Assembly (NCBI GenBank): GCA_902774905.1
Contig: CACYKF010000016.1
Location: 1-36,329, forward strand
DNA: 36,329 nucleotides
Direction of reading: 5' to 3'
Origin: an uncultured bacterium
GTDB taxonomy: Bacteria > Cyanobacteriota > Vampirovibrionia > Gastranaerophilales > Gastranaerophilaceae
The translations under genes and the position numbers were made by a program. Under the pieces are notes generated by a model that searched no databases, was not told the origin of the DNA, and saw only the letters and a program-made list of their open reading frames with translations. Within the stretch, counting starts at the first letter, position 1; every line of letters begins with the position of its first letter. Shown here in pieces: positions 20,270 through 36,329 of the stretch.

Positions 20270-20666
20270 GGGGACGTTCTGGTATTTGACAGGATGTTTG
20301 GTGGTAATATGCGGCGGGTCGGAGCGCTGTTCTCCGTCATCAACGAGCAAAACAAATTAAGTGCTAACAATGTAAGAAAAGTAGACTTTGCACAAGCATA
20401 TGCTTTGGCTGCTTAGTCTATGATTAGCCACTTATATAGCCCAGCTTGCCGGCTGTATAAGTCCATTATGCAAGCGGCAGTGTATTGATGCAAAGTAGAT
20501 ACATCAAGATGACTTTGCAAGGTTTAGAGTTTCCTTTAAATAAAACCTTGGGCTGATTCGTATGGTTTAGGACATTTTCCTGAATCAGTTGAGCAAAAAA
20601 TAGCCTACACTCGTAGAAGTATGTTGTCATCCATTTTGGACGTGGGTTCGACTCCCACCGTCTCCA
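20270..20666 (+). ncRNA. ssrA: Transfer-messenger RNA (tmRNA)
   Basis: The tRNA-like domain is made by the 5' end GGGGACG pairing with the 3' end CGTCTCC plus discriminator A, a D-loop-less start (GTTCTGGTATTTGACAGG) and the T-arm GTGGGTTCGACTCCCAC. The tag reading frame ends VDFAQAYALAA followed by TAG at 20414-20416; the C-terminal YALAA is the expected protease-recognition signal. The resume codon is not certain (reading frame GAG CAA AAC AAA TTA before the tag). CCA is not encoded at this copy. tmRNA rescues stalled ribosomes. Its 3' end is a common integration target, and here the last 16 bp are repeated at 20832-20847. Confidence 0.95.
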
Positions 20667-20847
20667 TTTTTAAATATTATAAATAATAGTTGTGTGAGGA
20701 GAACCCAACAAACCGAGAGGTTTGTCTGTGGTTCGAGCGGGAGAGAGCCGAGGCTGGAGCAGATTTTGGCTTGTGCCAAATGGCACAAAAGCCAAAATGC
20801 GTAATGCCGTTTATGGCGAACGACCAAGACAACTCCCACCGTCTCCA
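20651..20847. repeat. Duplicated ssrA 3' end (attachment-site-like direct repeats)
   Basis: ACTCCCACCGTCTCCA occurs at 20651-20666 (end of ssrA) and again at 20832-20847, where it is followed by CCA. The 165 bp between hold no gene. They contain a strong hairpin (20763-20798: ATTTTGGCTT-GTGCC / GGCAC-AA-AAGCCAAAAT). The pattern fits core attachment sites left by site-specific integration at ssrA, but the intervening DNA is too short to be the island itself. Confidence 0.65.
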
Positions 20848-21205: not shown

Positions 21206-22900
21206 ATGACAAACTTCACACCCGAAAAATGTAAACAAATAGCACTTGCAAGACTTGATGTGGTTCACAAGTGGCTTGAATTTAGAAAGCAATCTCAAAA
21301 TAAACTTCAAGCCGATTATGATTTTGTAAAATTACATAACACATCAAATTCACACTTGTTTGAAATTTTAGGAAAAATATCTCGCGGAAGTTTGCACCGT
21401 TGGTATGCTATGTTAAACGGAACGGAAGATTATATGAAACTTTTGCCGCAGTATAAATATTCAACTGTTTGGGAATACCGAACAGTTCTCAATGATGAAG
21501 AAATAAAAATCTTTATGGGATTGCTTTTGCATCCTAACAGATTATCTATCGGTAAGGCTATAGCATTAACAAAATATAGATTAAAGGAGCAGGGGCAAAA
21601 TTTTATTCCGGCGGATATCACATTTAGAAGGTACGCAAAATGGTTCAAGGATAATAATTACGATAAATGGATTCTTGCTCGTGACGGAGAAAAAGCACTA
21701 TCGGATAAAGTTGAACCATACATGAAACGTGATGCAAGCTTGCTTGAAGTCGGGGACATTCTTGTCGCGGACGGACATAAATTAGCATTTCAGGTAATAA
21801 ATCCGTTTACAGGAAAACCCTGCAGAGCAACATTAGTGGGATTTTTGGATTGGAAATCTACAGCACTCGTTGGATATGAAATAATGCTTGAAGAAAATAC
21901 GCAGTGTATTGCAAGTGCTTTGCGTAATTCAATAATTAATCTTGATATGATACCCAAAGTTGTTTATCAAGATAATGGCAGAGCTTTTCGGGCTAAGTAT
22001 TTTACAGATGATAAAGGATTCAGCGAACTCGGTTTTCAGGGATTGTATTCAAAACTGGGTATAGAAACAGTTTTTGCAAGACCGTATAATGCGAGAGCAA
22101 AAGTTATTGAAAGATTCTTTAAAGAATTTCAGGAAGGTTTTGAAAAACTTTTGCCGAGTTATATCGGAAGCAGTATTCAGAATAAACCTGCTTATATGAT
22201 GAGAAATGAGAAGTTTCATAAAAATCTACATAATGAATTTATTCCAACTATTGAAGAAACAATAAAAATGATTAATATGTGGCTGAGTTTCAAGAATTCT
22301 CAACCTTGTCCGAATGCTCCGGATAAAACAGTTACGGAAGTTTTATCTGAAAGGAAACGACAAAATATTGATATAAATACGCTTGACGATTTGATGCTTG
22401 CAACTGAAGTCAAAACAATTCAGCGAAACGGTATAAGATTTTTGAATTGTGACTATTTTGATGAAAGGTTGTACGGATTCAAGAGTAAAGTCCTGATTAA
22501 ATACAATATTTTTGATCTGACAAGTATTAAAGTTTACACCCCAAAAGGCGAATATCTTTGCACCGCAGAAAGAGTAACAGAAACTCATCCGATGGCAAAA
22601 TTACTCGGTAATGTCAAAGATTATGAAGATTACAAACAAAAAATTGTTAAACAACGGCAATTAAAAAAGAAAACAGTTGAATCTGTCAAAAAATATCTTC
22701 AATGTGAGGATATAAAGTTACTTGAAACACAAAATAAAAAACCAATTGTTCAATGTGCGTTTAAAACTAGTTCAAATGGTGTTTACAAGAGTTTTAAAAA
22801 TAATGCTGATAAATATGAGTATTTAATAACTCATAATCCGCAAGATGAGTGGATAGAGCAATTTAAGCAAACAAAGGAGTATCGATTATTGTATGAATAA
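21206..22900 (+). CDS. Mu-type DDE transposase (MuA/TnsB-like)
   Basis: A 564-residue transposase. An N-terminal helical DNA-binding region (about 1-170) is followed by an RNase H-fold catalytic core: Asp189 (ILVADGHK), Asp256 (VVYQDNGRA) and Glu302 (AKVIERFF), in the order and surroundings of the rve/MuA family. A C-terminal beta-barrel-like and basic region (about 400-564) should contact the ATPase. Mu-like enzymes cut and join element ends into target DNA. The next gene overlaps by 8 bp and encodes the matching ATPase. GTGAGGTAAC precedes the ATG, with the TTGCAC repeats upstream. Confidence 0.9.
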   Translation: MTNFTPEKCKQIALARLDVVHKWLEFRKQSQNKLQADYDFVKLHNTSNSHLFEILGKISRGSLHRWYAMLNGTEDYMKLLPQYKYSTVWEYRTVLNDEEIKIFMGLLLHPNRLSIGKAIALTKYRLKEQGQNFIPADITFRRYAKWFKDNNYDKWILARDGEKALSDKVEPYMKRDASLLEVGDILVADGHKLAFQVINPFTGKPCRATLVGFLDWKSTALVGYEIMLEENTQCIASALRNSIINLDMIPKVVYQDNGRAFRAKYFTDDKGFSELGFQGLYSKLGIETVFARPYNARAKVIERFFKEFQEGFEKLLPSYIGSSIQNKPAYMMRNEKFHKNLHNEFIPTIEETIKMINMWLSFKNSQPCPNAPDKTVTEVLSERKRQNIDINTLDDLMLATEVKTIQRNGIRFLNCDYFDERLYGFKSKVLIKYNIFDLTSIKVYTPKGEYLCTAERVTETHPMAKLLGNVKDYEDYKQKIVKQRQLKKKTVESVKKYLQCEDIKLLETQNKKPIVQCAFKTSSNGVYKSFKNNADKYEYLITHNPQDEWIEQFKQTKEYRLLYE

Positions 22901-23573
22901 GATTTTTGTAAAAACGCAAAACGTCAAAAACTTTATCGGACTTGTTGAGAATCTGATTAACAAACCCAAAAATATTCCGAAAATGGGACTTGTTTATGGT
23001 GAGCCCGGACTTGGAAAATCGCAAACAGCATTGTGGCTTGCGTGCAAGTATGACGGAATATATTTAAGGGCATCAAACCTTATGACGGGCAGATGGTTGC
23101 TTGAGGAAATGGTTAAAGAACTTGATGAAATTCCGAGATTTTTGACTTTGGATAATTTCAATATCGTGGTTAAAAAGCTGAAACAAAATCCACAGTTGAT
23201 TTTTATCGATGAGATTGATTACCTTATGAATAACTACAAAACCATTGAAACTCTAAGGGATATTTACGACGAAACCGGCTGCCCGATAGTTTTTATCGGA
23301 ATGGGATTGGCTCACAGAAAACTTGAAAGATATAAACATTTGTATGACAGGTTTTCAGAAATTTTAAAATTTGAAACCTTTGGCGTAAATGATTTAAGCC
23401 AAATTATAAACCAATTGTCTGAAATCTCATTTACTTCTGATTCAATTGAATATATCCACACGAAATACAATAGATTCAGGCAAATTGTTCAATTAATAAA
23501 TCAAATGGAAACATTTGCCAAAGACAATAATTTAACCGAAATAAATATGGAGGTCATAAGTCAAATAATATGA
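22893..23573 (+). CDS. MuB/IstB/TniB-like AAA+ transposition ATPase
   Basis: A 226-residue AAA+ ATPase. Walker A is GEPGLGKS (36-43), Walker B LIFIDEID (102-109), and a sensor-1-like strand IVFIGMG lies near 133-139. Length and pairing with a DDE transposase match MuB/IstB/TniB proteins, which bind target DNA with ATP, activate the transposase and confer target immunity. It overlaps the transposase gene by 8 bp and the following gene by 4 bp (ATGA), so all three are translated from one message. Confidence 0.9.
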   Translation: MNKIFVKTQNVKNFIGLVENLINKPKNIPKMGLVYGEPGLGKSQTALWLACKYDGIYLRASNLMTGRWLLEEMVKELDEIPRFLTLDNFNIVVKKLKQNPQLIFIDEIDYLMNNYKTIETLRDIYDETGCPIVFIGMGLAHRKLERYKHLYDRFSEILKFETFGVNDLSQIINQLSEISFTSDSIEYIHTKYNRFRQIVQLINQMETFAKDNNLTEINMEVISQII

Positions 23574-24079
23574 ACATAGAAAAATTGGCACGACATTTAA
23601 AAGAGTTTGCTCTAGATGAAATCGAAATGATTGCAGAGTGTGATTGTAAAACAGAACTTGAACGGCTTTTGAACGAGGGTAAATTGGTATTTGAACAAGG
23701 ATTGTACAAATATAAAGAGCCGAAGCAACTTAAGACTTTTGATATTTTTGAAAAGCCAATTTATAAAAGCGGGGAGCGAATTTTGTTTAAGAATATGGCA
23801 ATTATATATTTGAATAATCGTAGACTTACAAAAGATACATTAAAAGGCTACCGCTCGCAGCTGAAATATAATATTATTCCGTTTTTTGAGGGTTTATATA
23901 CTGATGAAATTACTTATGAAATGATTTTAAAATTTGTGGACTTTATGAAGAAAAAATTTAAACCAAAGACCGCAAGTAACGGAGTAACATTGCTTGGCAG
24001 TATTTTAAAATATGCATTTATGGATGGTTATATCAAAAATAATCCGTATTTTGGTGTTAGAAATTCAATGTGTAAATAA
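23570..24079 (+). CDS. Protein with a tyrosine-recombinase core-binding (SAM-like) domain only
   Basis: A 169-residue protein. After an N-terminal helical segment, residues about 80-165 match the SAM-like core-binding domain of phage integrases (FKNMAIIYLNNRRLTKDTLKGYRSQL, FVDFMKKKFKPKTASNGVTLLGS, AFMDGYIKNNP). The protein then stops: the catalytic half with Arg, HxxR and Tyr is absent, and the following gene uses a different frame, so I see no simple frameshift. It could be a DNA-binding accessory factor of the Mu-like module or a truncated integrase. The ATGA overlap with the ATPase gene argues that it is a working part of the operon. Confidence 0.65.
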   Translation: MNIEKLARHLKEFALDEIEMIAECDCKTELERLLNEGKLVFEQGLYKYKEPKQLKTFDIFEKPIYKSGERILFKNMAIIYLNNRRLTKDTLKGYRSQLKYNIIPFFEGLYTDEITYEMILKFVDFMKKKFKPKTASNGVTLLGSILKYAFMDGYIKNNPYFGVRNSMCK

Positions 24080-24088
24080 GGAGAAACT

Positions 24089-24496
24089 ATGACTAAATTA
24101 GATAAATTAAAACAAGCAGAGCATTTGTATGTTTGTGAAAAAGAGCCACTTGACGTGATTAGTGCAAAACTTGACCTTTCACGCAGGACTTTATTTTATT
24201 GGAAGAAAGAATATGAATGGGACAAAAAGAGGTTTGAAAAAGGCAGAGAACAGGAACTTTTTAATCGCGAACTCTTAAATTTTGCTCAAAAAATAATGGA
24301 TAAAATTTCAAATGATATTGATAATAATCAACAAACCCCACAGGCAGAAATGTATTCCCTTATGAATATCATTAAAAATCTGCCACAAATAAAATCAAAT
24401 ATCGAAATTTCGCAAACTAAACATAAATCTAAAAAGGAAGAATATTTGCCGGAAGATATTATAAAAATAGTTGAAAAAGATATTTTAGGCATGTAA
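24089..24496 (+). CDS. DUF1804-like HTH protein (Mu-like phage type)
   Basis: A 135-residue protein. The N-terminal helix-turn-helix (LYVCEKEPLDVISAKLDLSR, then RTLFYWKKEYEWDKKR) resembles DUF1804 or small-terminase-like proteins of Mu-like phages, followed by a helical, charged C-terminal half. GGAGAAACT lies before the ATG, 9 bp after the previous stop. No head, tail or lysis genes follow, so the module looks like a transposable element or prophage remnant and not a complete phage. Confidence 0.65.
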   Translation: MTKLDKLKQAEHLYVCEKEPLDVISAKLDLSRRTLFYWKKEYEWDKKRFEKGREQELFNRELLNFAQKIMDKISNDIDNNQQTPQAEMYSLMNIIKNLPQIKSNIEISQTKHKSKKEEYLPEDIIKIVEKDILGM

Positions 24497-24598
24497 ACAT
24501 AGCACCATACTAGTTTATAAAATATTATTTTTATTTTGTTTATCTATATATTAAATGTTTGCATTGATAATGTATAAATATTCTTTATTCTAATAAAA

Positions 24599-25324
24599 CT
24601 AAGAAAGTTCTTGAACTTGCTTTTCCAGCAAACTTTTTCTACCATCCCAACTTATTTTGAATTTATGATAATTGTCTAATTTTGTTAGGTTTGATGTTAA
24701 TTCTAGTTTTAATGAAACAACATATTCATGCAATTTGCCTATTAAAATAAGAAGAGCTTCTCTATCATTTATTACTTGTTGTTCATAAGGTAAAAGCATT
24801 TGTTCTGCAATTCCTTGTAATCGTTTTAATTCTAAATCCTTTAATGTTAATTCGTGATACAAAACTCCTTGGTTTCTTTCACCTACAATATTGTGTAGAT
24901 TGTATAACTTCAGGTTAAAACTTAAAAATTGTTCTAATAAATTATTAAATTTGCTGTCAAAGAAGCTCGTATATTCATCAAAATCAAATTCTTTTATTGT
25001 ATTTATAATTTCCATTGTCAGTTTATAATTTATCCTAAAATTCATATCCGTAATTTCTTTTTTTATAAGAAAATTACCTAAATTTTTATCAATTACACAG
25101 AGTGTAAAATAAATTTCCGCGAAATTGTTATATAGTTTGTTTATAATCTTATTTTTTTCATAAAGGAACAAAATTATTGAAGTCATGCCTGTTAACACAA
25201 CTCCGGTAAATACTCCTGTAGAAAGATCATAAAACTTATTATTTTGTTCTGTAGCAAAAATTCCAATTAAAGACAAAATTAATATAATTATGCAAGATAT
25301 AATAATGTATTTTTGTAATCTCAT
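24599..25324 (-). CDS. Membrane protein with two N-terminal spans and helical cytoplasmic domain
   Basis: A 241-residue protein. Two membrane helices, about 6-24 and 36-56, are followed by roughly 180 residues of charged, mostly helical sequence with no family that I recognise. Two-span proteins with a soluble domain are common as effectors in phage-defence islands, and this one lies between a Mu-like module and a type I restriction locus; a defence role is only a possibility. GGAGCTAAA precedes the ATG. Confidence 0.55.
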   Translation of the reverse strand: MRLQKYIIISCIIILILSLIGIFATEQNNKFYDLSTGVFTGVVLTGMTSIILFLYEKNKIINKLYNNFAEIYFTLCVIDKNLGNFLIKKEITDMNFRINYKLTMEIINTIKEFDFDEYTSFFDSKFNNLLEQFLSFNLKLYNLHNIVGERNQGVLYHELTLKDLELKRLQGIAEQMLLPYEQQVINDREALLILIGKLHEYVVSLKLELTSNLTKLDNYHKFKISWDGRKSLLEKQVQELS

Positions 25325-25414
25325 TTTAGCTCCTTTTTACTAAGAGTATCACAAATATAGAGCAAAACGAAGATATAAATAAATTCAAAAAATACTTACT
25401 ACAAGTTATAATAT

Positions 25415-25663
25415 TTAAAGTCTTTCAATGTACCAGTTCGACATTCCAAAATGATTAAAATTCCAATGTAATTCAAAATAAAAATTAAACTCCAAAGAGT
25501 TGTCGTCTTTGAAGTTCCAGGAATATTTATTTAATTGTGTTTTGCGGTAACTTTCAAATGCATCCTGAATTTCTTTTGCAAACTTTTTCCTAAATTCAGA
25601 ATACGGAATATCAAGTGTTTCTTTAGTCAATTTATTTTTCACTTTCATTTCGCTTTGCTCCAT
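25415..25663 (-). CDS. Small hypothetical protein
   Basis: An 82-residue protein rich in aromatic residues in its C-terminal half (YSWNFKDDNSLEFNFYFELH). No family is recognised. It follows three other small minus-strand genes (25697-26482), with which it may form one accessory operon. No clear Shine-Dalgarno sequence precedes the chosen ATG. Confidence 0.45.
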   Translation of the reverse strand: MEQSEMKVKNKLTKETLDIPYSEFRKKFAKEIQDAFESYRKTQLNKYSWNFKDDNSLEFNFYFELHWNFNHFGMSNWYIERL

Positions 25664-25696
25664 TACAGATACAGGCTCACAAGTTTCGGCTTCGCC

Positions 25697-25906
25697 TTAA
25701 CTGTTCGCTTTGTAAAAATCATCTTCAAACCCTCTTATATTATCGAGCTCAATATTGTACCGTTTGCCGGTCTTATCAACACAAGTTGCGAAATCGACGG
25801 TTTTATCGGCAAATTTGTTCTCCCACAAGCAAATTAACAAACCGATTTCTTGCGATTTTAAGTTCAAAATCTTTGTTCCGTATAACTTATAATTTTTTTC
25901 AACCAT
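25697..25906 (-). CDS. Small hypothetical protein
   Basis: A 69-residue soluble protein with no recognised domain, containing LLICLWENKFADK and RYNIELDNIRGFEDDF. Its ATG lies 3 bp after the stop of the upstream gene (25910-26122), and AAAGGATAAATT precedes it, so translation is probably coupled. Confidence 0.55.
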   Translation of the reverse strand: MVEKNYKLYGTKILNLKSQEIGLLICLWENKFADKTVDFATCVDKTGKRYNIELDNIRGFEDDFYKANS

Positions 25907-25909
25907 AAT

Positions 25910-26122
25910 TTATCCTTTCGTTATTGTAATATCTGCGTATATCTCATCCGGTTTGTCGGGATCAATCAAAAAATCTTTATCAAATACATATCTTTCACCA
26001 TCCGGTGCAACGCAGCCGACAATGTTGTGTTCGCCAAAACAAACAACTTTAAACTCTTCGCTATCTTTTTCAAACCAACCTTTTAGCTTTTTTAATCTGT
26101 ATTTTTTACCGATTTCAATCAT
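25910..26122 (-). CDS. Small hypothetical protein, beta-rich
   Basis: A 70-residue protein with the pattern of a small beta-barrel (GKKYRLKKLKGWFEKDSEEF, then VVCFGEHNIVGCVAPDGERY), but I cannot name a family. AAAGGAGCACACT precedes the ATG. The first of two closely spaced genes; the next starts 3 bp after its stop. Confidence 0.55.
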   Translation of the reverse strand: MIEIGKKYRLKKLKGWFEKDSEEFKVVCFGEHNIVGCVAPDGERYVFDKDFLIDPDKPDEIYADITITKG

Positions 26123-26226
26123 AGTGTGCTCCTTTCAAGCTACACCATTCATCACTCTTTTCATAAGAAACATCAACCATATGTGTCTAAAACGTATCAT
26201 TCTGACATAATAATTTTTGAACACGA

Positions 26227-26258
26227 TTTAAACGGCTTTTAAACACCTTTTAAACGGC
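26227..26258. repeat. Three 11-bp tandem repeats
   Basis: (T)TTTAAACGGC, TTTTAAACACC and TTTTAAACGGC in a row, followed by ATTTAAAT, in the gap 26123-26260. The period is one helical turn, as in binding-site arrays. The start of the window (8-18) contains the similar TTAAACGGCATTTA. Confidence 0.6.
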
Positions 26259-26260
26259 AT

Positions 26261-26482
26261 TTAAATTTCAACTTCTTTTTCGTGGTCAATAAAGAATGCG
26301 TTTAGCACATCTGCATCATTTCGCAGGTGCTTAATTACCGGCGCAAGATTGTAGCATTCTTCAATATCAGGTTGGTTTGCCACAAAATAATCAATAACAA
26401 CTGCTGTGTTATAAATATTCTCCGACCACTTGCTTAACTGTTTGAATTCTTTTGGAGTAATATTCAATCCGACCTTTTCCAT
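26261..26482 (-). CDS. Small hypothetical protein
   Basis: A 73-residue helical acidic protein (ITPKEFKQLSKWSENIYNTA, NLAPVIKHLRNDADVLNAFF) with no family recognised. GGAGGTCGTAA precedes the ATG. The region upstream to 26580 contains promoters for this gene and the divergent one. Confidence 0.5.
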   Translation of the reverse strand: MEKVGLNITPKEFKQLSKWSENIYNTAVVIDYFVANQPDIEECYNLAPVIKHLRNDADVLNAFFIDHEKEVEI

Positions 26483-26580
26483 TTACGACCTCCTTTAACG
26501 TGTCGTATACATCACTCAAAGCCAGAATTAAATCAAGTTAATGTTTTACATGCCACTTATTTTTAGGCTATAGTAATAAT

Positions 26581-27321
26581 ATGAGCAACTTATCACCTGC
26601 AGATATTAAATATTTAGATAATGCTTTAAGGCTTGAAACGGGATTTATTGTAAGATTTACAAAAGAATCCTTTGCTGAATTTTTTCAACATTTTAATATT
26701 AATATTTATGATGAAAAATATACTGCAAATGGAACATCTATGACTAATATTTTACACACATTTTGGAATTTAGAAGACAACAAACTTGTTGCTATGACAT
26801 TATTAGAACTTGCGTCATTATTTCGCAATAGAGAATTAGCAATCCCAATGTATGTTAAATTTTCGGTTGAAATTGAAAAAATTGCTAATAAATTACAGAT
26901 GTACCCTTCTAAAAAAGTAGAGGTAAATAACAATATGATAAATAATATTGAAGACGCTGAAGTTACAATCAATATAAGACCTGAAATATATGAACATATA
27001 AAAAGATATTTTGCGACTCAAGATTATTATCACGCAGTAGAAGAAGCATACAAAATTGTTAGGCAAAAATTAAGGGAGTTAACGGGAGAAGAAAAAGCAA
27101 GTCAGGCATTTAGCGAAACAAATATTGAAAAAATATTTGGACACAAAGCTAAAGATGATACCGAAAAAGATTTTTTTGATGGGGTAAAATTTATAAATAT
27201 GGCAATACAAATGTTTAGAAACGAAAAAGCACACACTCCGGCAAAACAATTAGATAGAAATTTAGCAATACATTATATTTCTCTGGCAAGTTTAGCGTAT
27301 GAATTAATATCAAAAAATTAG
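26581..27321 (+). CDS. TIGR02391 (Ymh)-family protein
   Basis: A 246-residue protein. The C-terminal third (about 160-245) matches my recollection of the TIGR02391/Hypoth_Ymh family: AYKIVRQKLRELTG, FFDGVKFINMAIQMFRNEKAH and LDRNLAIHYISLASLAYELI. Proteins of this family are often found in or beside type I restriction loci and other defence islands; their biochemical activity is not established. It is 142 bp upstream of hsdR on the same strand. A -10-like TATAGTAATAAT is immediately before the ATG, with no Shine-Dalgarno, so this transcript may also be leaderless or nearly so. Confidence 0.75.
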   Translation: MSNLSPADIKYLDNALRLETGFIVRFTKESFAEFFQHFNINIYDEKYTANGTSMTNILHTFWNLEDNKLVAMTLLELASLFRNRELAIPMYVKFSVEIEKIANKLQMYPSKKVEVNNNMINNIEDAEVTINIRPEIYEHIKRYFATQDYYHAVEEAYKIVRQKLRELTGEEKASQAFSETNIEKIFGHKAKDDTEKDFFDGVKFINMAIQMFRNEKAHTPAKQLDRNLAIHYISLASLAYELISKN

Positions 27322-27404
27322 GTTTTGCAAATTCGCTACTCAGTGCGTACTGATTTTATATGTCCATATTTGGCACAGTAATAAAGTAATATAAACATAA
27401 AAGA

Positions 27405-27436
27405 CATATTGCCATGTTCATGGTAGTATTGGCATA
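27405..27436. promoter_or_regulatory. Nested palindrome in the hsdR upstream region
   Basis: CCATGTTCATGG (27412-27423; 5-bp arms, 2-bp centre) lies inside an outer imperfect repeat CATATTGCCA / TGGCATATG (27405-27436). It is 30-60 bp before the hsdR ATG, a plausible position for an operator. Confidence 0.45.
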
Positions 27437-27463
27437 TGAATTTTATGTAGTTGAGGGTTTTGA

Positions 27464-30250
27464 ATGGGCTATCAAAGTGAAGCAGAATTAGAAAATAAAT
27501 TGATTGAAAAACTTAAAACACAAGGTTATGAGAGAGTTTTAATTAATGATTATTCAGAACTTGAAAATAATTTCCGAGAACAACTTAATAAATTTAATAA
27601 AAAATCATTAGATGAGAAACCTTTAACTGATAAAGAATTTGAGAGAGTATTAAATATTCTTAATGGCAAAAGTGTTCTGCAATCTGCAATAAAATTAAGA
27701 GAAAAAATAGATTTTGACAGAGAAGACGGTACAAAAATATATTTAAAATTATTATCAGAAAATGCCGAAGACAATATTTATCAAGTTTCAAATCAAATTA
27801 CTGTTCAAGGTAAGTATAAAAACAGATATGATGTTACCATTTTAATTAATGGTTTACCATTAGTTCAAATAGAACTAAAGCGTAGCGGTATTGATATCAA
27901 TGAAGCTATTAATCAGATTGATAGATACCGTATCCATTCATATCGTGGATTATTTCATTACATACAAATTTATGTTGTTTCAAATAGTGTAGAAACAAGA
28001 TATTTTGCAAATACTGATGCCCAAAGATTATTAAAATCTCTAACATTTTATTGGACAACTGAAACAAACGAGAGAATAAATAAACTGGAAGATTTTTCAT
28101 CTTCTTTCTTTAACAAAACCCGTTTATTGAAGAATATTACCCGTTATATGGTAATTAATGAAACAGATAAAAATCTCATTGTTATGCGCCCTTATCAAAT
28201 ATATGCCACAGAAGCGTTAATCAGACATGCATTAGACACCGGTAAAAACGGATATATTTGGCATACAACAGGGTCAGGTAAAACATTAACAAGTTGGAAA
28301 TGTGCAAATTTACTATCAAAAGAACAAAGCATTAAAAAAGTATTTTTCTTGATCGATAGGAAAGATCTTGATACGCAGACAAAAGAAGAATTTAATAAAT
28401 TTGAAAAAGATTGTGTTGATGAAACTGATAAAACTGAAACATTAGTAAAACAGATAAAAGATATTGATAGAAAATTAATAGTTACAACCATTCAAAAAAT
28501 GGCAAATGCTATAAAAAATCCGAGATATTCAAAAATATTGGATAATTATAAAGATGAAAAAGTTATATTTATAATAGATGAATGCCATAGGTCCCAATTT
28601 GGAGAAATGCATACTACTATAAAACATCATTTTAAACATGCGCAATATTTCGGTTTCACAGGTACACCTCGTTTTGATGAGAATAAATCTCAAAATGGAC
28701 TCAGAACATCTGATTTATTTGAAAAATGTTTACATACATATTTAATCAAGAATGCAATATATGACCACAATGTTTTAGGATTTTCAATTGAATATATTCA
28801 AACATTCAAAGGTCAATATGATGAAAATGATAAAACCATGGTTGAAGGTATTGATACTGACGAAGTTTATATGGCAGATGAGAGAATTGACTTGGTTGCA
28901 AATCATATAATAAATAACCATAAGTGCAAAACTGTAAACGGTAAATATACAGCTATTTTCGCCACATCTTCAATCCCTGCACTTGCTAAATATTACGATA
29001 AAATCAAAAGTTTAAATTCTGATTTAAAAATTGCTGCAGTTTTTTCATATGGTGAAAATGAAGATTTAGAAGGTAAAGATGAACATAGCAAAGATATTTT
29101 AGCAAGAATAATTGATGATTATAATAAAGAATTTGATACTAATTTTTCATTAGAAACCTTTGCTGCATACAACAAAGATATTGCTAACAGATTAAAAATC
29201 AAAAAATCGCCGAAAATTGATATTTTACTTGTAGTAAATATGTATTTAACAGGTTTTGATTCAAGACCACTTAATACTTTGTATGTTGATAAAAATCTTG
29301 AATGGCACAACTTAGTACAAGCATTTTCAAGGACAAACAGGGTTGAAATGGCTTCAAAACCTTTTGGTAATATTATTTGTTACAGAAATCTTAAATCTAA
29401 TACAGATAAAGCCTTAAGATTATTCAGTAATGAATTAGAAGCAGATACAGAAAACAATCCGCCAATATGGATAATTCCGGGTTATGGATATTTTAGAGAC
29501 AAATTTAAGGAGTTGGCATTCAAGTTACTGTCTATTGCGCCAACAGTTCAAAGTGTAGATGATTTAATGAGCGAAGATGCGCAAAGAGAATTTGTTATTG
29601 CTTTTAGAGAATTGTCAAAAATAAAATCAATTCTTACGACATTTTCGGAATTTTCATGGGCGGATGTTGAAGATGCTTTAACTTGTCAGGGGTATGAAGA
29701 TTATAAGAGCAGATATTTAACATTATATGATTTTGTTAAAAAGGAACGTAATGCAGAAAAAGTTTCAATTCTTGATGATATTGATTTTGCTATTGAAGTT
29801 ATTCAAACAGATAAGATAAATGTTACATATATCATGAATTTATTAAGAAATGTCGATATCGCCAACAAAAAACAGCAAGCAAAAGATTTGGAACATATTA
29901 AGCAAGAGTTAGATAGAACCGATAATCCAGAATTAAGAAGAAAAGTTGATTTAATTAGAGCATTTATCGATAGAGTAATGCCTACAATAAAACAAAATGA
30001 TTCAATCGATGAAGCATTTGCTAATTTTGAATCAGAACAAAGAAATAAAGAAATTGAAGATTTCGCAAATAAACAAGAAATTAATGCAGAGTTTTTGAAA
30101 CAGACAATTTCAGACTATGAATTTTCAAATACAATAAATAAAAAAGATATAATAACAGGTATTGATAGACCTATAAAATTTAAAGAAAAACATGAACTTG
30201 TTGCAAAAATAATTCGATTTATTAAGGAAAATGTATTTAAATATCAATAG
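27464..30250 (+). CDS. hsdR: Type I restriction enzyme R subunit
   Basis: A 928-residue HsdR, the motor and nuclease subunit of a type I restriction-modification complex. The N-terminal PD-(D/E)xK nuclease has Asp123 and QIELKRSG (Glu137, Lys139). The SF2 translocase has Walker A TTGSGKT (268-274), DECH (372-375), FGFTGTPR and the later QAFSRTNR motif. A helical C-terminal domain contacts the methylase core. Length is normal. GAGGG precedes the ATG. The hsdM Shine-Dalgarno overlaps its end, so R, M, RhuM-Fic and S are one operon. It lacks obvious lesions, so restriction should be possible whenever a functional S subunit is present. Confidence 0.96.
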   Translation: MGYQSEAELENKLIEKLKTQGYERVLINDYSELENNFREQLNKFNKKSLDEKPLTDKEFERVLNILNGKSVLQSAIKLREKIDFDREDGTKIYLKLLSENAEDNIYQVSNQITVQGKYKNRYDVTILINGLPLVQIELKRSGIDINEAINQIDRYRIHSYRGLFHYIQIYVVSNSVETRYFANTDAQRLLKSLTFYWTTETNERINKLEDFSSSFFNKTRLLKNITRYMVINETDKNLIVMRPYQIYATEALIRHALDTGKNGYIWHTTGSGKTLTSWKCANLLSKEQSIKKVFFLIDRKDLDTQTKEEFNKFEKDCVDETDKTETLVKQIKDIDRKLIVTTIQKMANAIKNPRYSKILDNYKDEKVIFIIDECHRSQFGEMHTTIKHHFKHAQYFGFTGTPRFDENKSQNGLRTSDLFEKCLHTYLIKNAIYDHNVLGFSIEYIQTFKGQYDENDKTMVEGIDTDEVYMADERIDLVANHIINNHKCKTVNGKYTAIFATSSIPALAKYYDKIKSLNSDLKIAAVFSYGENEDLEGKDEHSKDILARIIDDYNKEFDTNFSLETFAAYNKDIANRLKIKKSPKIDILLVVNMYLTGFDSRPLNTLYVDKNLEWHNLVQAFSRTNRVEMASKPFGNIICYRNLKSNTDKALRLFSNELEADTENNPPIWIIPGYGYFRDKFKELAFKLLSIAPTVQSVDDLMSEDAQREFVIAFRELSKIKSILTTFSEFSWADVEDALTCQGYEDYKSRYLTLYDFVKKERNAEKVSILDDIDFAIEVIQTDKINVTYIMNLLRNVDIANKKQQAKDLEHIKQELDRTDNPELRRKVDLIRAFIDRVMPTIKQNDSIDEAFANFESEQRNKEIEDFANKQEINAEFLKQTISDYEFSNTINKKDIITGIDRPIKFKEKHELVAKIIRFIKENVFKYQ

Positions 30251-30259
30251 GAGTTGAGA

Positions 30260-31828
30260 ATGGTAGATATTGCGGTACAAAAAGAACAAAAAGCTGAACT
30301 ACATAGCAAATTATGGGAAATGGCAAATAATTTGCGTGGGAATATGGAAGCTTATGAATTTAAAAATTATATTCTTGGTTTAATATTCTATCGTTATTTA
30401 TCTGAACGTACCGAAAATTATATGAAAGAACTTTTAAAGGATGATGGTATATCTTATGCAGAAGCTTGGGACGATGAAGAATATAGAGAAGGTTTAAAAG
30501 AAGAATCTATCGATTATTTGGGTTATGTCATAGAACCAAAATATCTTTTTTCTCATGTAATAAAATTAATTGAAACAGGAGAATTTGATGTTGAATATAT
30601 GGAAAAGATAATAAACTCAATATCTGAAAGTACACAAGGACACGATTCCCAAGAAGATTTTGAAGGATTATGGGAAGATATGGATTTAAGATCTTCCAAA
30701 CTTGGTAAAGAAGTTTCTCATCGTTCAAAATTAATTGCAAAAATCCTAAATACAATTAACACAATAGATTTCCATTTAGAAAATATGGAACTTGATGTAT
30801 TGGGTGATGCATATGAATATTTAATCGGTATGTTTGCACAAACCGCCGGCAAGAAAGGTGGAGAATTTTATACTCCGGTTAATATGTCAAAACTTGTCGC
30901 CAAACTTGCAACTGTCGGTTTAAGTGAAGCAAGAACAGTTTCTGACTGCGCCTGCGGTTCAGGCGGTTTATTGTTGCAAGTAGGTAAATATATAAAAGTG
31001 GGTCAATATTATGGTCAGGAATTAACAAGTACAACATATAACCTTGCAAGAATGAATATGTTACTTCATGGAATTCCTTATAACAATTTTGAAATAACAA
31101 ATTGTGATACCCTTGAAGATGAAAGATATGAGGATAGAAAATATACTGTACAAGTAGCAAACCCACCATATTCTACCAATTGGAGTGCAAATTCAAAATT
31201 TTTAGATGATGAAAGATTTTCAGCTTATGGTAAACTTGCACCGAAATCTACTGCGGATTTTGCTTTTGTTCAGCACATGATTTATCACATGGATTCTGAT
31301 GGCAGAATAGCAGTCTTATTACCACATGGAGTATTGTTCAGAGGGAATGCTGAAGAAACTATAAGAAAGTATATAGTTAAAGATTTAAACTATTTAGATG
31401 CTGTTATTGGTTTACCTGCAAATTGTTTCCAAGGAACGTCGATCCCTGTCTGTTGTATAGTGTTAAAAAGAGAACGTAACGGCAACAGTGATAATATTTG
31501 CTTTATAGATGCATCTAAATATTACACACAAGGTAAAGCGCAAAACTCTATTTCTCAAGAAGATATTGACAGAATAGTTAATGCCTATACGGAAAGAAAA
31601 GATATCGAAAAATTCTGTCATATAGCGACAATGGAAGAAATTGAAGAAAATGACTATAATTTAAATATTCCAAGATATGTTGATACTTTTGAACCTGAAC
31701 CGGAAGTAGATTTACAAGAAGTTGCAAGTGATATTCGTAAAGTTCAGGCGGAGATAAAAGATATTGATAAGGAGTTGAAGCCGTTTTTTGATGAATTGGG
31801 ATTAGATTTCCCGTTTGGAGAAAATTAA
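30260..31828 (+). CDS. hsdM: Type I restriction-modification DNA methyltransferase (M subunit)
   Basis: A 522-residue N6-adenine methyltransferase. An N-terminal HsdM helical domain (about 10-150) is followed by GGEFYTPVNMSKL (200-212), SAM-binding motif I DCACGSGG (229-236) and catalytic NPPY (301-304). The C-terminal helix contacts HsdS. The ATG at 30260 is preferred to a TTG two codons earlier because it leaves a proper 6-nt gap after TAGGAG. Two bases separate its stop from the RhuM-Fic start. It should methylate the site chosen by whichever HsdS is expressed. Confidence 0.96.
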   Translation: MVDIAVQKEQKAELHSKLWEMANNLRGNMEAYEFKNYILGLIFYRYLSERTENYMKELLKDDGISYAEAWDDEEYREGLKEESIDYLGYVIEPKYLFSHVIKLIETGEFDVEYMEKIINSISESTQGHDSQEDFEGLWEDMDLRSSKLGKEVSHRSKLIAKILNTINTIDFHLENMELDVLGDAYEYLIGMFAQTAGKKGGEFYTPVNMSKLVAKLATVGLSEARTVSDCACGSGGLLLQVGKYIKVGQYYGQELTSTTYNLARMNMLLHGIPYNNFEITNCDTLEDERYEDRKYTVQVANPPYSTNWSANSKFLDDERFSAYGKLAPKSTADFAFVQHMIYHMDSDGRIAVLLPHGVLFRGNAEETIRKYIVKDLNYLDAVIGLPANCFQGTSIPVCCIVLKRERNGNSDNICFIDASKYYTQGKAQNSISQEDIDRIVNAYTERKDIEKFCHIATMEEIEENDYNLNIPRYVDTFEPEPEVDLQEVASDIRKVQAEIKDIDKELKPFFDELGLDFPFGEN

Positions 31829-31830
31829 TA

Positions 31831-32814
31831 ATGGAAAACCAAATTGCAATATATAAAAATAACGATGGAAATATTGAATGTAGTGTAAATCTACGAGACA
31901 ATACACTATGGCTTTCTTTAGACCAAATAGCAACAGTTTTTCAGAAAAATAAATCTACAATATCACGACATATAAAAAATATTTTTGAAACGGAAGAATT
32001 GGATAAAGATTCAGTTGTTGCATTTTTTGCAACAACTGCCAACGACGGAAAAACCTATAATGTAGCTTATTACAATTTGGATATGATAATTTCTGTCGGT
32101 TATAGAATTAATTCAAAAATTGCTACAAATTTTAGAAAATGGGCAACAAATGTTTTAAAAAATTATTTAACACAGGGTTATGCAATTAATGAAAAATTAT
32201 TAAGTGATAAACAGGAAAAAATACAAACTCTACAAACAACAGTAAGTTTACTAACAAGAAGTTTAACAAATCAAATTGAATCACTTGATGATGCACAGCA
32301 AGTCGCAAAAATTTTGGATAATTTTGCAAAAGGGCTTGATTTGCTTGACAACTTTGATCATAAAACATTAGATGTAAAAGGCTCTACACAAAAAGAAGCT
32401 GTTATAATTCCTGTTAAAGAATTTTTATCAGTAATAAACGAAATGAAATCGGAATTTGCATCTGATGTTTTTGCAAATCCGAAAGATGATAGTTTTGAAA
32501 GTTCTGTAAATCAAATTTATCAAACTTTTGGCGGAAATGATTGTTATCCGACATTAGAAGAAAAAGCTGCAATGCTGTTATATTTGATAACTAAAAATCA
32601 CTCTTTCTCTGATGGGAATAAACGTATTGCGGCAAGTTGCTTCTTGTACTTTTTAGAAAAAAATGGAATTTTGTATAAAAATAATTTGCCTATCATTGAT
32701 AACGGAACTTTATTTGCATTAACCATATTAATTGCCGAAAGCAATCCAAAAGAAATGGAAACAATGAAGCAAATTGTTATAAGTGTTCTAAATCAAGGAG
32801 GAGTTTGTGACTAA
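31831..32814 (+). CDS. RhuM-like N-terminus fused to Fic/Doc domain
   Basis: A 327-residue protein. Residues 1-115 are RhuM-type (LWLSLDQIATVFQKNKSTIS, an HTH-like region, and VGYRINSKIATNFRKWAT). Residues 190-320 are a Fic/Doc fold with the catalytic motif HSFSDGNKR (257-265), a near match to HxFx(D/E)GN(G/K)R, so NMP transfer (Fic) or Doc-like kinase activity is likely. It starts 2 bp after hsdM and its stop overlaps the GTG of hsdS by 8 bp, so it is translated between methylase and specificity subunits. RhuM-Fic genes recur within type I restriction operons; a regulatory or back-up toxic role is inference. Confidence 0.9.
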   Translation: MENQIAIYKNNDGNIECSVNLRDNTLWLSLDQIATVFQKNKSTISRHIKNIFETEELDKDSVVAFFATTANDGKTYNVAYYNLDMIISVGYRINSKIATNFRKWATNVLKNYLTQGYAINEKLLSDKQEKIQTLQTTVSLLTRSLTNQIESLDDAQQVAKILDNFAKGLDLLDNFDHKTLDVKGSTQKEAVIIPVKEFLSVINEMKSEFASDVFANPKDDSFESSVNQIYQTFGGNDCYPTLEEKAAMLLYLITKNHSFSDGNKRIAASCFLYFLEKNGILYKNNLPIIDNGTLFALTILIAESNPKEMETMKQIVISVLNQGGVCD

Positions 32815-32875
32815 TTCTGAAACAAAAAATTTTTCACAAAATGTATCCTCAAGTTATCATCTTGAAGAGGTATAA
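32807..32875 (+). other. Expressed start of hsdS, out of frame in this orientation (23 codons)
   Basis: GTG at 32807 has an excellent Shine-Dalgarno AAGGAGG (32795-32801) and overlaps the previous stop. It reads MTNSETKNFSQNVSSSYHLE through the left inverted repeat, then meets TAA at 32873-32875. Inversion at the 22-bp repeats would join it in frame to the hsdS now lying on the minus strand. This is the real translation start of the locus. Confidence 0.85.
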
Positions 32876-33980
32876 TGACGAGTGGGTTGAAAAAAGAATA
32901 GAAAAGGTTTTAAAAATTAAGCACGGAAAAGATCAAAAGGCAATTGAGAACAATGATGGAATATATCCGATTTTGGCAACAAGCGGGGAAATAGGACGCT
33001 CAAATACTTTTTTATGGGATAAACCTTGCGTTTTAATAGGAAGAAAAGGAACAATTAATAAACCACAGTATATGGATACTCCGTTTTGGACTGTTGATAC
33101 ATTATTCTATTCGGATGTTTTTCAAAACAATAATGCAAAATATTTATATTATTTATTTAATACAATAAATTGGAAAAAATATGATGAGTCAACAGGGGTA
33201 CCAAGTTTAAGTGCTAAAACTATTGAGAGAATAAAAATTAAAATATCTAACAATCTTCGAGAGCAAGAAAAAATAGCATCTTTTTTGACATTAATTGATA
33301 AGAAAATTGAAAAACAAAAAGAGCTTGTTGAACTCCTCAAGAAGTATAAAAGAGGATTGTTTTCAGCAATATTCAGCCAAAAATTGAAATTCAAAGACGA
33401 TAACGGAAACGATTATCCGGCATGGGAAGAAAAAAGATTGGGGGATATTTGTAAAATTGTAGGAGGTGGAACTCCAGATACTAATAATGTTAAATATTGG
33501 GGTGATGATATCAATTGGTTTACACCAACAGAAATAATAAAAAAATATGCAGATAGCAGTAATAGAAAGATTTCTAGACTAGGTTTATTAAAAAGTTCTG
33601 CCAAAATATTACCAATAGGTACTGTATTATTGACTACTCGTGCGACCTTAGGAGAAATGTCAATTTTGAGCATTGAAGCTACAACTAATCAAGGTTTTCA
33701 ATCACTGATACCTGTTAAAGATGAGGCATCAAGTGAATTTATATATTATTGCCAACCAATTATAAAACATTTTTGCTATAAATATGCCAACGGTTCAACA
33801 TTTTTAGAAATAAGCAAGCAGACTTTAGCAAAATTAAAATTAATGATACCAAATAAAGATGAACAAAATAAAATATCAGATTTTTTATCAAAATTTGATA
33901 ATAAAATCCAACAAGAAGAATGTATATTAAGTAATTTAAAAACTTACAAAAAGGGGTTGTTACAGCAGATGTTTATATAA
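32841..33980 (+). CDS. hsdS: Type I specificity subunit, frame-disconnected from its start (allele A)
   Basis: A 379-codon HsdS with two target-recognition half-domains. TRD1 spans about 10-145 (DEWVEKRIEKVLKIKHGKDQ), followed by conserved helix KIASFLTLIDKKIEKQKEL, the spacer FKDDNGNDYPAWEEK, TRD2 about 200-345, and a final helix ending KKGLLQQMFI. The ATG at 32841 has no Shine-Dalgarno. Its frame differs from the operon's GTG start at 32807, which terminates at 32875. The usual N-terminal PKLRFKG lead-in is missing here, though present in allele B, consistent with a small deletion next to the inverted repeat. I infer that this allele is silent or weakly expressed as sequenced. It converges on allele B with an 8-bp overlap. 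Confidence 0.88.
   Translation: MYPQVIILKRYNDEWVEKRIEKVLKIKHGKDQKAIENNDGIYPILATSGEIGRSNTFLWDKPCVLIGRKGTINKPQYMDTPFWTVDTLFYSDVFQNNNAKYLYYLFNTINWKKYDESTGVPSLSAKTIERIKIKISNNLREQEKIASFLTLIDKKIEKQKELVELLKKYKRGLFSAIFSQKLKFKDDNGNDYPAWEEKRLGDICKIVGGGTPDTNNVKYWGDDINWFTPTEIIKKYADSSNRKISRLGLLKSSAKILPIGTVLLTTRATLGEMSILSIEATTNQGFQSLIPVKDEASSEFIYYCQPIIKHFCYKYANGSTFLEISKQTLAKLKLMIPNKDEQNKISDFLSKFDNKIQQEECILSNLKTYKKGLLQQMFI
32847..32868 (+). repeat. Outer inverted repeat, left (22 bp)
   Basis: Perfect inverse complement of 35225-35246. Its core TCAAGTTATCATCTTGA has 5-bp dyad arms (TCAAG/CTTGA) around a 7-bp centre, the usual form of a tyrosine-recombinase crossover site. It encodes SSYHLE in both alleles. 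Confidence 0.92.
33309..33434 (+). repeat. Inner inverted repeat, left (126 bp)
   Basis: Matches the reverse complement of 34528-34653 at 125 of 126 positions; the single difference is at 33360. It covers the conserved helix and spacer between the two target-recognition domains. Identity falls off sharply on both sides, as expected for homology maintained by recombination. Confidence 0.93.
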
Positions 33981-33982
33981 AC
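33971..33982. repeat. 12-bp palindrome at the convergent hsdS stop codons
   Basis: GTTTATATAAAC is a perfect palindrome that supplies both stop codons of the overlapping convergent alleles (33978-33980 and 33973-33975). It is nearly central in the invertible cassette. Confidence 0.8.
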
Positions 33983-35250
33983 AGTTTTTGTAAAAGACCT
34001 TTTTTATAATCATTATAAGAATCTAATAAAATATTCTCTTTTTCTATAATATTATCTAACTTTGATATTATATTTGCAATTTTTACTTGTTCATCATATA
34101 CAGGGCAAGAAAATTTATAGTTTGAATATTCTTTTGCATTTATTCCCGGTTGTCCAGATCGAGCTGACATGATTGAAACCCATTTTTTATAATTAAAAGT
34201 TTGGGTTATATAAAAAATAAAATTACTACAATATTCGTTTTTTATAGAAAATTTTATTAAGAATCCTGCAAAATACATCTTTCCGTCATTTTCATTATAT
34301 AAATATGTCTTTCCTGTACTTGCCCCTGTTCTGGCAAATAATAAGTCATTAATTTTTAACTTGTAATCATCTGATAAAACACAATCTGGGGAAACGATAT
34401 CCAAATTATTAAATTTACCTGTAGTTTCATCAATATCAGTAATTCTGATATATTTATTTTCTCCGTCATAATCTTTTGATGCAGCATTTAAGCCATAAGA
34501 TATATTGCCTGTTACTTCTCCGAGAGATTTTTCTTCCCATGCCGGATAATCGTTTCCGTTATCGTCTTTGAATTTCAATTTTTGGCTGAATATTGCTGAA
34601 AGCAATCCTCTTTTATACTTCTTGAGGAGTTCAACAAGCTCTTTTTGTTTTTCGATTTTCTTATCAATTAATGTTAAAAATGATGCTATCTTTTTCTGTT
34701 CTTCATATCTTGGTAAATTTAGTTTTATATTTGTATAATCTTCATATGAAATATTTAATAAACCATCCATACGAACGCTTGAAGACACTAATTTTCTCAA
34801 TTCTCGTTCAAGTAATTTATTATTTAAATATAAGGCAATATATGGAGCATAATTATTTTTATCTATTTTAAAGCAATGATAGACATAGGGAATACGTGCC
34901 TCATCAACGTCTATTTGAAAACAACAACCGTACGGTTTTGCTTTTGAAGCACCATGATTATATGCAAGCTCACCTTTATGTATAATGGTATATTTTGTCA
35001 AACTTTTACCTGCATTATCTCGCGAATATTTTTCTGATTGCATTATAAAGCCACAATTAGCAGAAATCATCATGATAGGTGCTGTAGAATCAGAATTAAC
35101 CCTTTTTATTCGAGTAGATATATTTTTTAATGGTATTTTATCATAATTATAGGTATACCCTTTAAAGCGGAGTTTTGGGACATTGCGTGCGTTGGCACAT
35201 GTATTTTTATTACATTTACCCCTGTCTTCAAGATGATAACTTGAGGTCAA
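33973..35250 (-). CDS. hsdS: Silent type I specificity subunit, complete cassette (allele B)
   Basis: A 425-codon frame on the minus strand from a TTG at 35250 with no Shine-Dalgarno before it. It carries the lead-in NVPKLRFKG, a TRD1 unlike that of allele A, the conserved helix and spacer, a second distinct TRD2 and a closing helix ending KKGLLQKLFI. After inversion at the outer repeats, the GTG at 32807 would read straight into it, giving a 437-residue HsdS of normal size. As sequenced it is a storage copy. It overlaps allele A tail-to-tail. Confidence 0.9.
   Translation of the reverse strand: MTSSYHLEDRGKCNKNTCANARNVPKLRFKGYTYNYDKIPLKNISTRIKRVNSDSTAPIMMISANCGFIMQSEKYSRDNAGKSLTKYTIIHKGELAYNHGASKAKPYGCCFQIDVDEARIPYVYHCFKIDKNNYAPYIALYLNNKLLERELRKLVSSSVRMDGLLNISYEDYTNIKLNLPRYEEQKKIASFLTLIDKKIEKQKELVELLKKYKRGLLSAIFSQKLKFKDDNGNDYPAWEEKSLGEVTGNISYGLNAASKDYDGENKYIRITDIDETTGKFNNLDIVSPDCVLSDDYKLKINDLLFARTGASTGKTYLYNENDGKMYFAGFLIKFSIKNEYCSNFIFYITQTFNYKKWVSIMSARSGQPGINAKEYSNYKFSCPVYDEQVKIANIISKLDNIIEKENILLDSYNDYKKGLLQKLFI
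34528..34653 (-). repeat. Inner inverted repeat, right (126 bp)
   Basis: Partner of 33309-33434 within allele B, 125 of 126 identical in inverse orientation. Exchange here would give hybrid HsdS proteins with TRD1 of one allele and TRD2 of the other. Confidence 0.93.
35225..35246 (-). repeat. Outer inverted repeat, right (22 bp)
   Basis: Partner of 32847-32868. It lies 51 bp before the start codon of the recombinase gene, so the enzyme gene is immediately outside the segment it presumably inverts. Confidence 0.92.
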
Positions 35251-35258
35251 GAAATCTT

Positions 35259-35296
35259 ATAAATACCTTAATAAATAGATATAAGGAGGTATTTAT
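35259..35296 (+). promoter_or_regulatory. Hairpin covering the recombinase ribosome-binding site
   Basis: ATAAATACCT (35259-35268) is perfectly complementary to AGGTATTTAT (35287-35296) with an 18-nt loop. The Shine-Dalgarno AAGGAGG (35283-35289) is partly inside the right arm, and the ATG follows at 35298. Folding of the mRNA would hide the ribosome-binding site and limit recombinase synthesis, perhaps with temperature dependence because the stem is A/U-rich. Confidence 0.65.
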
Positions 35297-35297
35297 T

Positions 35298-36329
35298 ATG
35301 ACAAAACTAACAAAAAACACTACTTTTAAAACATTGACACATTTATGGTTAAAAGAAAAACAGGCTATGGTTACCCAATCAACTTATGCCGGATTTTTAC
35401 TTATTGTTGAAAATCATCTGATACCGTATTTTGGGACACAAAAAATATGCGATATAACAGAACCAAAAATTCAGGAATTTATTTTTTATCTTTTTAATAA
35501 TGGACGACTTGATAATTCCGGCGGTCTTACAGTAAAAACTATAAGGGATATCATTCTTGTCTTAAGGCTAACATTAAATTTTGCATATAAATCAAGAGTA
35601 ATTGCCGCATTAAATTGGGATTTAATAGACTACCCAAAAGATTCGGCAATTAAAAAAGTTATAGCATTATCCAAGGACGAAGAACAAATGCTGATACAAG
35701 CAATTTATTTGAATTTAACAAGAAAATCAGTTGGAATATTACTGACATTATTTACCGGATTGAGGATAGGAGAACTTTGCGGCTTGCAAATGTCAGACAT
35801 ATCATTGAGCGATAATACTATAACTGTCAACAAAACTGTACAAAGAATTTATGATAAATTAAAGAAAACATCTTATATTCATATCGGCGCACCCAAAACA
35901 AAAAGTTCGCAAAGAACTATTCCCGTACCATCATTATTAATGAATATTATAAAAAAGTTTTATACAAATAATCCTAATCACTATTTTTTAACAGGGAAAT
36001 CAACCCCGACAGAACCAAGAGTTTATAGACAATTTTTTGCAAGATTTGTGAAAAAACATGAACTAACACCGGTAAAATTTCATGAACTTCGTCATACATT
36101 TGCAATTAGAGCAATAGAAATTTCGGATTTTGATATAAAATCCCTGTCAGAAATATTAGGACACAAAAATGTATCATACGAAAACCGTACGTTGGATAAT
36201 CGTACGTTGGAAAATCCTACATACGATAACGAAACGCAAATAAAGAAAGAGAGAGAAAAGAAAGAAAAAGAAAATATAGATTGTATAAATCATCGAATCA
36301 TATCTTATCAGCCGGAAAACGATACTTCA
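35298..36329 (+). CDS. Tyrosine recombinase (putative hsdS invertase), abnormal C-terminus, runs off the window
   Basis: 344 codons without a stop. The N-terminal core-binding domain (about 8-105, LKEKQAMVTQSTYAGFL) is followed by a catalytic domain with Arg156 (FTGLRIGEL), Lys near 200-202 (APKTKSSQRTIP), His262-x-x-Arg265 (HELRHTFA) and His289 (ILGHKN). The nucleophilic Tyr is expected about nine residues after His289, but after NVS (293) the sequence becomes unrelated: four pentapeptide repeats (YENRT, LDNRT, LENPT, YDNET) and a Lys/Glu-rich stretch. Position 298 is Thr. This may be a natural 3' exchange, a broken gene or an assembly join. Its position beside the outer repeat points to hsdS inversion. 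Initiation is from an ideal but hairpin-covered Shine-Dalgarno. Confidence 0.85.
   Translation, partial: MTKLTKNTTFKTLTHLWLKEKQAMVTQSTYAGFLLIVENHLIPYFGTQKICDITEPKIQEFIFYLFNNGRLDNSGGLTVKTIRDIILVLRLTLNFAYKSRVIAALNWDLIDYPKDSAIKKVIALSKDEEQMLIQAIYLNLTRKSVGILLTLFTGLRIGELCGLQMSDISLSDNTITVNKTVQRIYDKLKKTSYIHIGAPKTKSSQRTIPVPSLLMNIIKKFYTNNPNHYFLTGKSTPTEPRVYRQFFARFVKKHELTPVKFHELRHTFAIRAIEISDFDIKSLSEILGHKNVSYENRTLDNRTLENPTYDNETQIKKEREKKEKENIDCINHRIISYQPENDTS
36177..36236 (+). repeat. Four degenerate 15-bp repeats coding [YL]-[ED]-N-x-T
   Basis: In-frame units start at 36177, 36192, 36207 and 36222, coding YENRT, LDNRT, LENPT and YDNET. They begin exactly where recombinase homology ends. Similar linkers followed by Lys/Glu-rich runs occur, from memory, in phage replication-initiation proteins. 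Confidence 0.7.

Follow-up and report, generated by a model that had tools for sequence, protein, structure and literature searches.

Does inversion at the hsdS genes of this uncultured member of the Gastranaerophilales turn a type I restriction-modification (R-M) system on and off, or does it exchange one specificity for another? The window, the whole stretch of 36,329 nucleotides that was analysed, is an entire contig from a genome of 1,987,673 bases in 51 contigs that is 99.81% complete. The first-pass annotation had described an hsdS phase switch in an apparent OFF state, with one of the two orientations at the outer repeat looking null. Comparison with related loci makes it very probable that this is instead an inverting type I R-M locus that normally swaps target recognition domains (TRDs), and that its OFF look stems from a lesion or an error private to this sequence among those searched. 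The features of the locus are as follows.

27464..30250, plus strand: hsdR (TIGR00348 hsdR, 2.6e-135, above cut-off; HSDR_N and EcoR124_C domains)
30260..31828, plus strand: hsdM (TIGR00497 hsdM, 2.8e-136, above cut-off; searched from 30281, with ATG 30260 read as the start)
31831..32814, plus strand: RhuM-Fic fusion gene between hsdM and hsdS (Virulence_RhuM, 9.6e-23; Fic, 4.1e-10; match to the PADLOC candidate defence family PDC-S23, 8e-125)
32807..32875, plus strand: hsdS start with a ribosome site, a 22-codon frame ending at TAA
32841..33980, plus strand: left HsdS frame with TRD1 and TRD2, displaced from the GTG frame (Methylase_S, 3.8e-47, two stretches)
32847..32868, plus strand: left outer repeat, reduced to its 22-bp core; 65 bases of RUG12035 and RUG12268 are absent after 32868
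33260..33434, plus strand: left arm of the inner inverted repeat, between TRD1 and TRD2 (175 nt, 95% complementary)
33973..35250, minus strand: silent inverted hsdS copy with intact lead-in (Methylase_S, 1.4e-18); when inverted in silico, it reads in frame from GTG 32807
34528..34702, minus strand: right arm of the inner inverted repeat
35154..35246, minus strand: right outer repeat, full 93 bp, with its 22-bp core at 35225-35246
35298..36177, plus strand: tyrosine recombinase gene, broken off after LGHKNVS (Phage_integrase, 4.3e-21; C-terminal end by comparison)
36178..36329, plus strand: stretch fused to the recombinase frame, up to the contig end

With hsdR, hsdM and hsdS all present, the locus has the gene content of a type I R-M system. 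It also has parts of an inverting one: a second hsdS copy lies inverted and carries different TRDs, and two sets of repeats are present, one ahead of TRD1 (22 bp, against 93 bp in RUG12268) and one separating TRD1 from TRD2 (175 nt). A recombinase gene adjoins the hsdS pair, its frame breaking before the NVYG motif near the contig end. Upstream of the R-M locus, positions 21206-24496 hold Mu/Tn7-like transposition genes (Mu-transpos_C, an AAA/TniB-like ATPase, an integrase-type SAM domain, and a terminase-like helix-turn-helix). The tmRNA gene at 20270-20666 ends in 16 bases repeated exactly at 20832-20847, an arrangement that resembles an island integration site.

In such a layout, the outer repeats (before TRD1) and the inner repeats (between TRD1 and TRD2) would swap TRDs between the expressed hsdS and the silent inverted copy. 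Since both orientations at the outer repeat would normally be in frame, specificity would be switched and R-M would not be turned off. In the window, 65 bp are missing from the left outer arm just past its 22-bp core; their absence shifts the frame and makes the expressed copy look OFF. The motif CCTCAAG is common to the outer core (32847-32868) and the inner repeat (33260-33434), and several Clostridia relatives likewise carry it in both repeat types (CCTCAAGTAACGGT in the outer, CCTCAAGAAGTATAAAAGAGG in the inner). Its presence in both suggests that one recombinase serves both the outer and the inner sites.

Most of what the first-pass annotation reported at the left end of hsdS is borne out. 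GTG 32807 is preceded by GGAGGAG and opens a frame of 22 codons that closes at TAA 32873-32875, although this stop begins 5 bases beyond the repeat arm and not "seven codons or bases" past it, as had been written. The arms at 32847-32868 and 35225-35246 are exact inverted 22-mers, and the outer repeat is beyond chance, as the 19-mer of the arm (up to 3 mismatches) has 2 matches in the window against 0.04 expected, a number reached in 0 of 100 shuffles. As also claimed, the large left HsdS lies in another frame and lacks PKLRFKG: it is open from ATG 32841 for 379 codons, and the left arm read in the GTG frame stops after SSYHLEEV. The minus-strand allele keeps the lead-in SSYHLED...PKLRFKG, which reads in frame with GTG 32807, and when the segment is inverted in silico an HsdS of 437 codons results. 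Because the left hsdS is out of frame as assembled and the other copy would be in frame if inverted, "apparent OFF state" is a fitting description of this sequence.

Several ways in which the left copy might be expressed or regulated as it stands were considered and set aside. Two starts that keep the HsdS frame, ATG 32841 and TTG 32862, have no ribosome site recognisable by eye, and no slippery motif for a programmed frameshift was recognised at 32868-32875. A promoter within the switch found no support either, with 22 promoter-like sites against 17.6 expected in shuffles.

Whether the OFF look is a property of the switch was addressed through its relatives. A recombinase query against 382 genomes of the class matched 25 genomes at E<=1e-20, and in 11 of these, the window's own (G000) included, the match covers the whole query at 87-100% identity. 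Two genomes, RUG12035 (G314) and RUG12268 (G213; contigs equal in both cases), carry the entire R-M locus in the orientation of the window. Over window positions 27001-36329, RUG12035 has 0 substitutions, its sole difference being 65 more bases at 32868; RUG12268 shares this 65-base addition at 32868 and differs further by 44 substitutions. With these bases, GTG opens a frame of 412 codons in both, and of 437 codons after inversion in silico. In RUG12268 the outer arms match perfectly over 93 bp; the corresponding stretch of RUG12035 contains mismatches. The first-pass annotation had named extra bases near 32868-32875 that restore the frame as a finding that would speak against it; such bases exist in the relatives, which is a statement about those genomes and not about the reads of this sample.

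Farther left, the window is 100% identical to RUG12268 from 21625 and to RUG12035 from 22069, in each case up to 28395. Both genomes are placed in genera other than that of the window, and the same locus in metagenome-assembled genomes of other genera means that transfer or mis-binning must be assumed. The three loci are near-identical and not independent. The 14-kb stretch at 21625-36329, near-identical across genomes placed in three genera, would reflect either a mobile element that moved recently or contigs assigned to the wrong bin.

Beyond these close copies, repeat arms were surveyed in the window and 14 relative loci (L081 gave none), yielding 18 arms with a core. Sixteen stay open over their whole available length, and in 14 of these the frame continues through PKLRFKG; one is not readable since the L080 contig ends inside the core, and the one arm out of frame is the left arm of the window. 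When relatives with a start upstream of the arm were inverted in silico between the outer repeats, both orientations were in frame from the same start in 15 of 15, a result that the window as assembled does not share. These 15 comprise L084, L085, L090, and 12 loci with recombinases 67-73% identical, which are mostly named as Clostridia and relatives, with two from IMG/VR. The inversion count leaves aside L103 (no start in the contig), L094 (too complex), and partial loci at contig ends such as L099, L102, L107-L112, and L131. A null orientation is therefore conserved in 0 of 15 relatives inverted in silico and in 0 of 16 other readable arms, which argues that a specificity switch is the rule for loci of this family.

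The short junction itself appears in 5 of 123 loci, every one from the window's genome, and in none of the viral contigs. A query spanning RhuM-Fic and the left arm matched 44 of 383 family genomes, only 8 of them, the window's included, into the repeat core; the other 7 were inspected, and none closes within the sequence available. The core pattern with up to 2 mismatches occurs in 26 of 382 genomes (exact copies listed in 7), and matches to it mean little by themselves because a reversed control pattern also occurs in 22. Contig breaks within the repeat arms of relatives were not taken to indicate mixed orientations, because short-read assemblies tend to break at repeats of this sort in any case. 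On plasmids, HsdS relatives comprise 698 records, all below 60% identity, and add nothing to the on/off question. TRD1 of the active copy in G220 resembles TRD1 of the silent copy in G190 (90% over 185 residues), and the start of the window's active TRD1 resembles the silent TRD1 of G142 (24 of the 25 first residues identical, the contig ending soon after). These matches between active and silent copies fit outer inversion, and domain transfer could also explain them.

The recombinase bears on whether such an exchange could still occur in this element. In 17 of 19 relative loci, translation gives a 318-codon frame with LGHKNVSFTLNVYG (FTLNVYG; FTINVYG in one). The window, RUG12035, and RUG12268 leave the family sequence after LGHKNVS, run on into a stretch that all three share, and end their contigs at the same base, the break point lying 152 bases from the contig end. 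Because the loci are near-identical, these three interruptions are counted as one event. The tyrosine of NVYG is the presumed nucleophile. In an alignment with Tn1549 Int, it lies opposite the latter of two adjacent tyrosines, and the position at which the deposited chains 6en0 and 6emy differ (Y to F) lies opposite the preceding valine; this offset makes the assignment of the tyrosine uncertain by one position. Since the interruption falls before the conserved tyrosine of NVYG, this element has probably lost the ability to invert at its outer repeats, by analogy with the short pneumococcal repeat that depends on PsrA, and the switch would be locked. Recombination between the inner repeats would not repair the damaged start. 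A search of the window's genome for a second recombinase of the same kind found none at E<=1e-20 (6 of 8 candidates scored).

The stretch fused to the recombinase has no Pfam match, no match as protein in phages or plasmids, and no exact 30-mer in viral contigs. Among 382 genomes, full matches are confined to the window's genome, RUG12268, and RUG12035, and 6 further genomes show short matches of low complexity. The idea of a transposon end was rejected; the 11-mer repeated near 36186-36211 occurs 5 times in the window when up to 2 mismatches are allowed, where 2.97 occurrences would be expected. If the interruption is real, the element would be a natural example of an hsdS switch becoming locked.

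It could be proposed that the outer inversion is designed to toggle between a functional hsdS and a null version. The assembly itself offers one orientation out of frame and another of 437 codons, and Mycoplasma pulmonis provides a precedent, as described in PMC4948785, for R-M activity lost through hsdS rearrangement. However, the 15 relatives in frame both ways, the 16 other open arms, and the in-frame locus of RUG12035, otherwise identical, all speak against a programmed switch of this kind, and the interrupted recombinase speaks against active toggling; such a design is highly improbable. It is likewise improbable that a real 65-bp loss right beside the recombination core made an on/off switch out of a specificity switch in one lineage, where a recombinase encoded by a second copy of the element, or at some other place in the cell, would still drive inversion. 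The OFF state claimed at first pass holds for the sequence as assembled, in which inversion would put the other copy in frame, and is not supported as a property of the switch.

Within the preferred reading, that of a TRD-swapping locus with a private lesion, the 65-bp difference would be either an error at the repeat or a recent deletion, found in no other genome searched. An error at the outer repeat, through assembly or a chimera, in a strain whose real arm is the longer one, has about an even chance of being correct. It would account for the lack of any other difference from RUG12035 across 9.3 kb and for a lesion that starts exactly where the repeated core ends, with edges at an imperfect 8-base repeat (CTTGAAGA and CTTTAAAG, 5 of 8 identical in our reading) and no clean microhomology at the join. 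Against an error, the junction has no N or gap, a k-mer assembler normally needs reads across the join, and the right arm is intact. The intact right arm and the contig passing the junction without a gap also indicate that the deletion may be real, having arisen recently in a locked locus, where the interrupted recombinase would leave a defect in the expressed copy that inversion could no longer bypass. This has somewhat less than an even chance, as the short junction occurs in no other genome searched and the join lacks clean microhomology. The error is slightly ahead, with the remainder falling to other readings. If the deletion is real, HsdS would be absent, or may still be weakly made from ATG 32841 or TTG 32862.

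Compared with what has been described elsewhere, the locus is, on its sequence, a damaged member of an already known kind, the inverting type I R-M locus. One family of hsdS-inversion loci is common to the Gastranaerophilales and gut Clostridia (recombinases 67-73% identical), and a literature search pairing "hsdS" with "Gastranaerophilales" found nothing on the subject, judged by titles. The case serves mainly as a caution that, in a single assembly, a switch of specificity can be mistaken for one that turns on and off, and that a near-identical relative settles the reading. Gut inverton group 145, which is reported to overlap restriction subunit S genes, to be linked with tyrosine recombinases, and to bear signs of transfer, is alike by description in having subunit S genes inverted beside tyrosine recombinases in gut bacteria (PMC11892184). 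The pneumococcal cod locus with PsrA is alike by arrangement, having a tyrosine recombinase beside hsdS genes and a short repeat; unlike the window, it is described with three hsdS genes and three repeat pairs (PMC4948785; PMC7096588). There, inversion at the short IR1 (15-bp) is reported to be strictly PsrA-dependent, and longer repeats invert without PsrA at reduced rates (PMC7096588). In the account given of Mycoplasma pulmonis, hsdS inversions at the hsd loci are likewise made by a tyrosine recombinase, and R-M activity is missing from some of the arrangements; rearrangement there regularly ends in such a loss, whereas in the window it rests on one damaged arm (PMC4948785). A similar plan is found in type I loci that combine a recombinase and an additional, inverted hsdS with repeats placed ahead of the 5′ TRD and between TRDs; they are described as inverting systems producing four HsdS proteins (PMC7394358). 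The four-way switch drawn for Streptococcus suis shares these repeats, the inverted second hsdS, and the recombinase gene with the window, which differs in its host group, the RhuM-Fic gene inside the operon, the damaged left arm, and the interrupted recombinase (PMC7394358).
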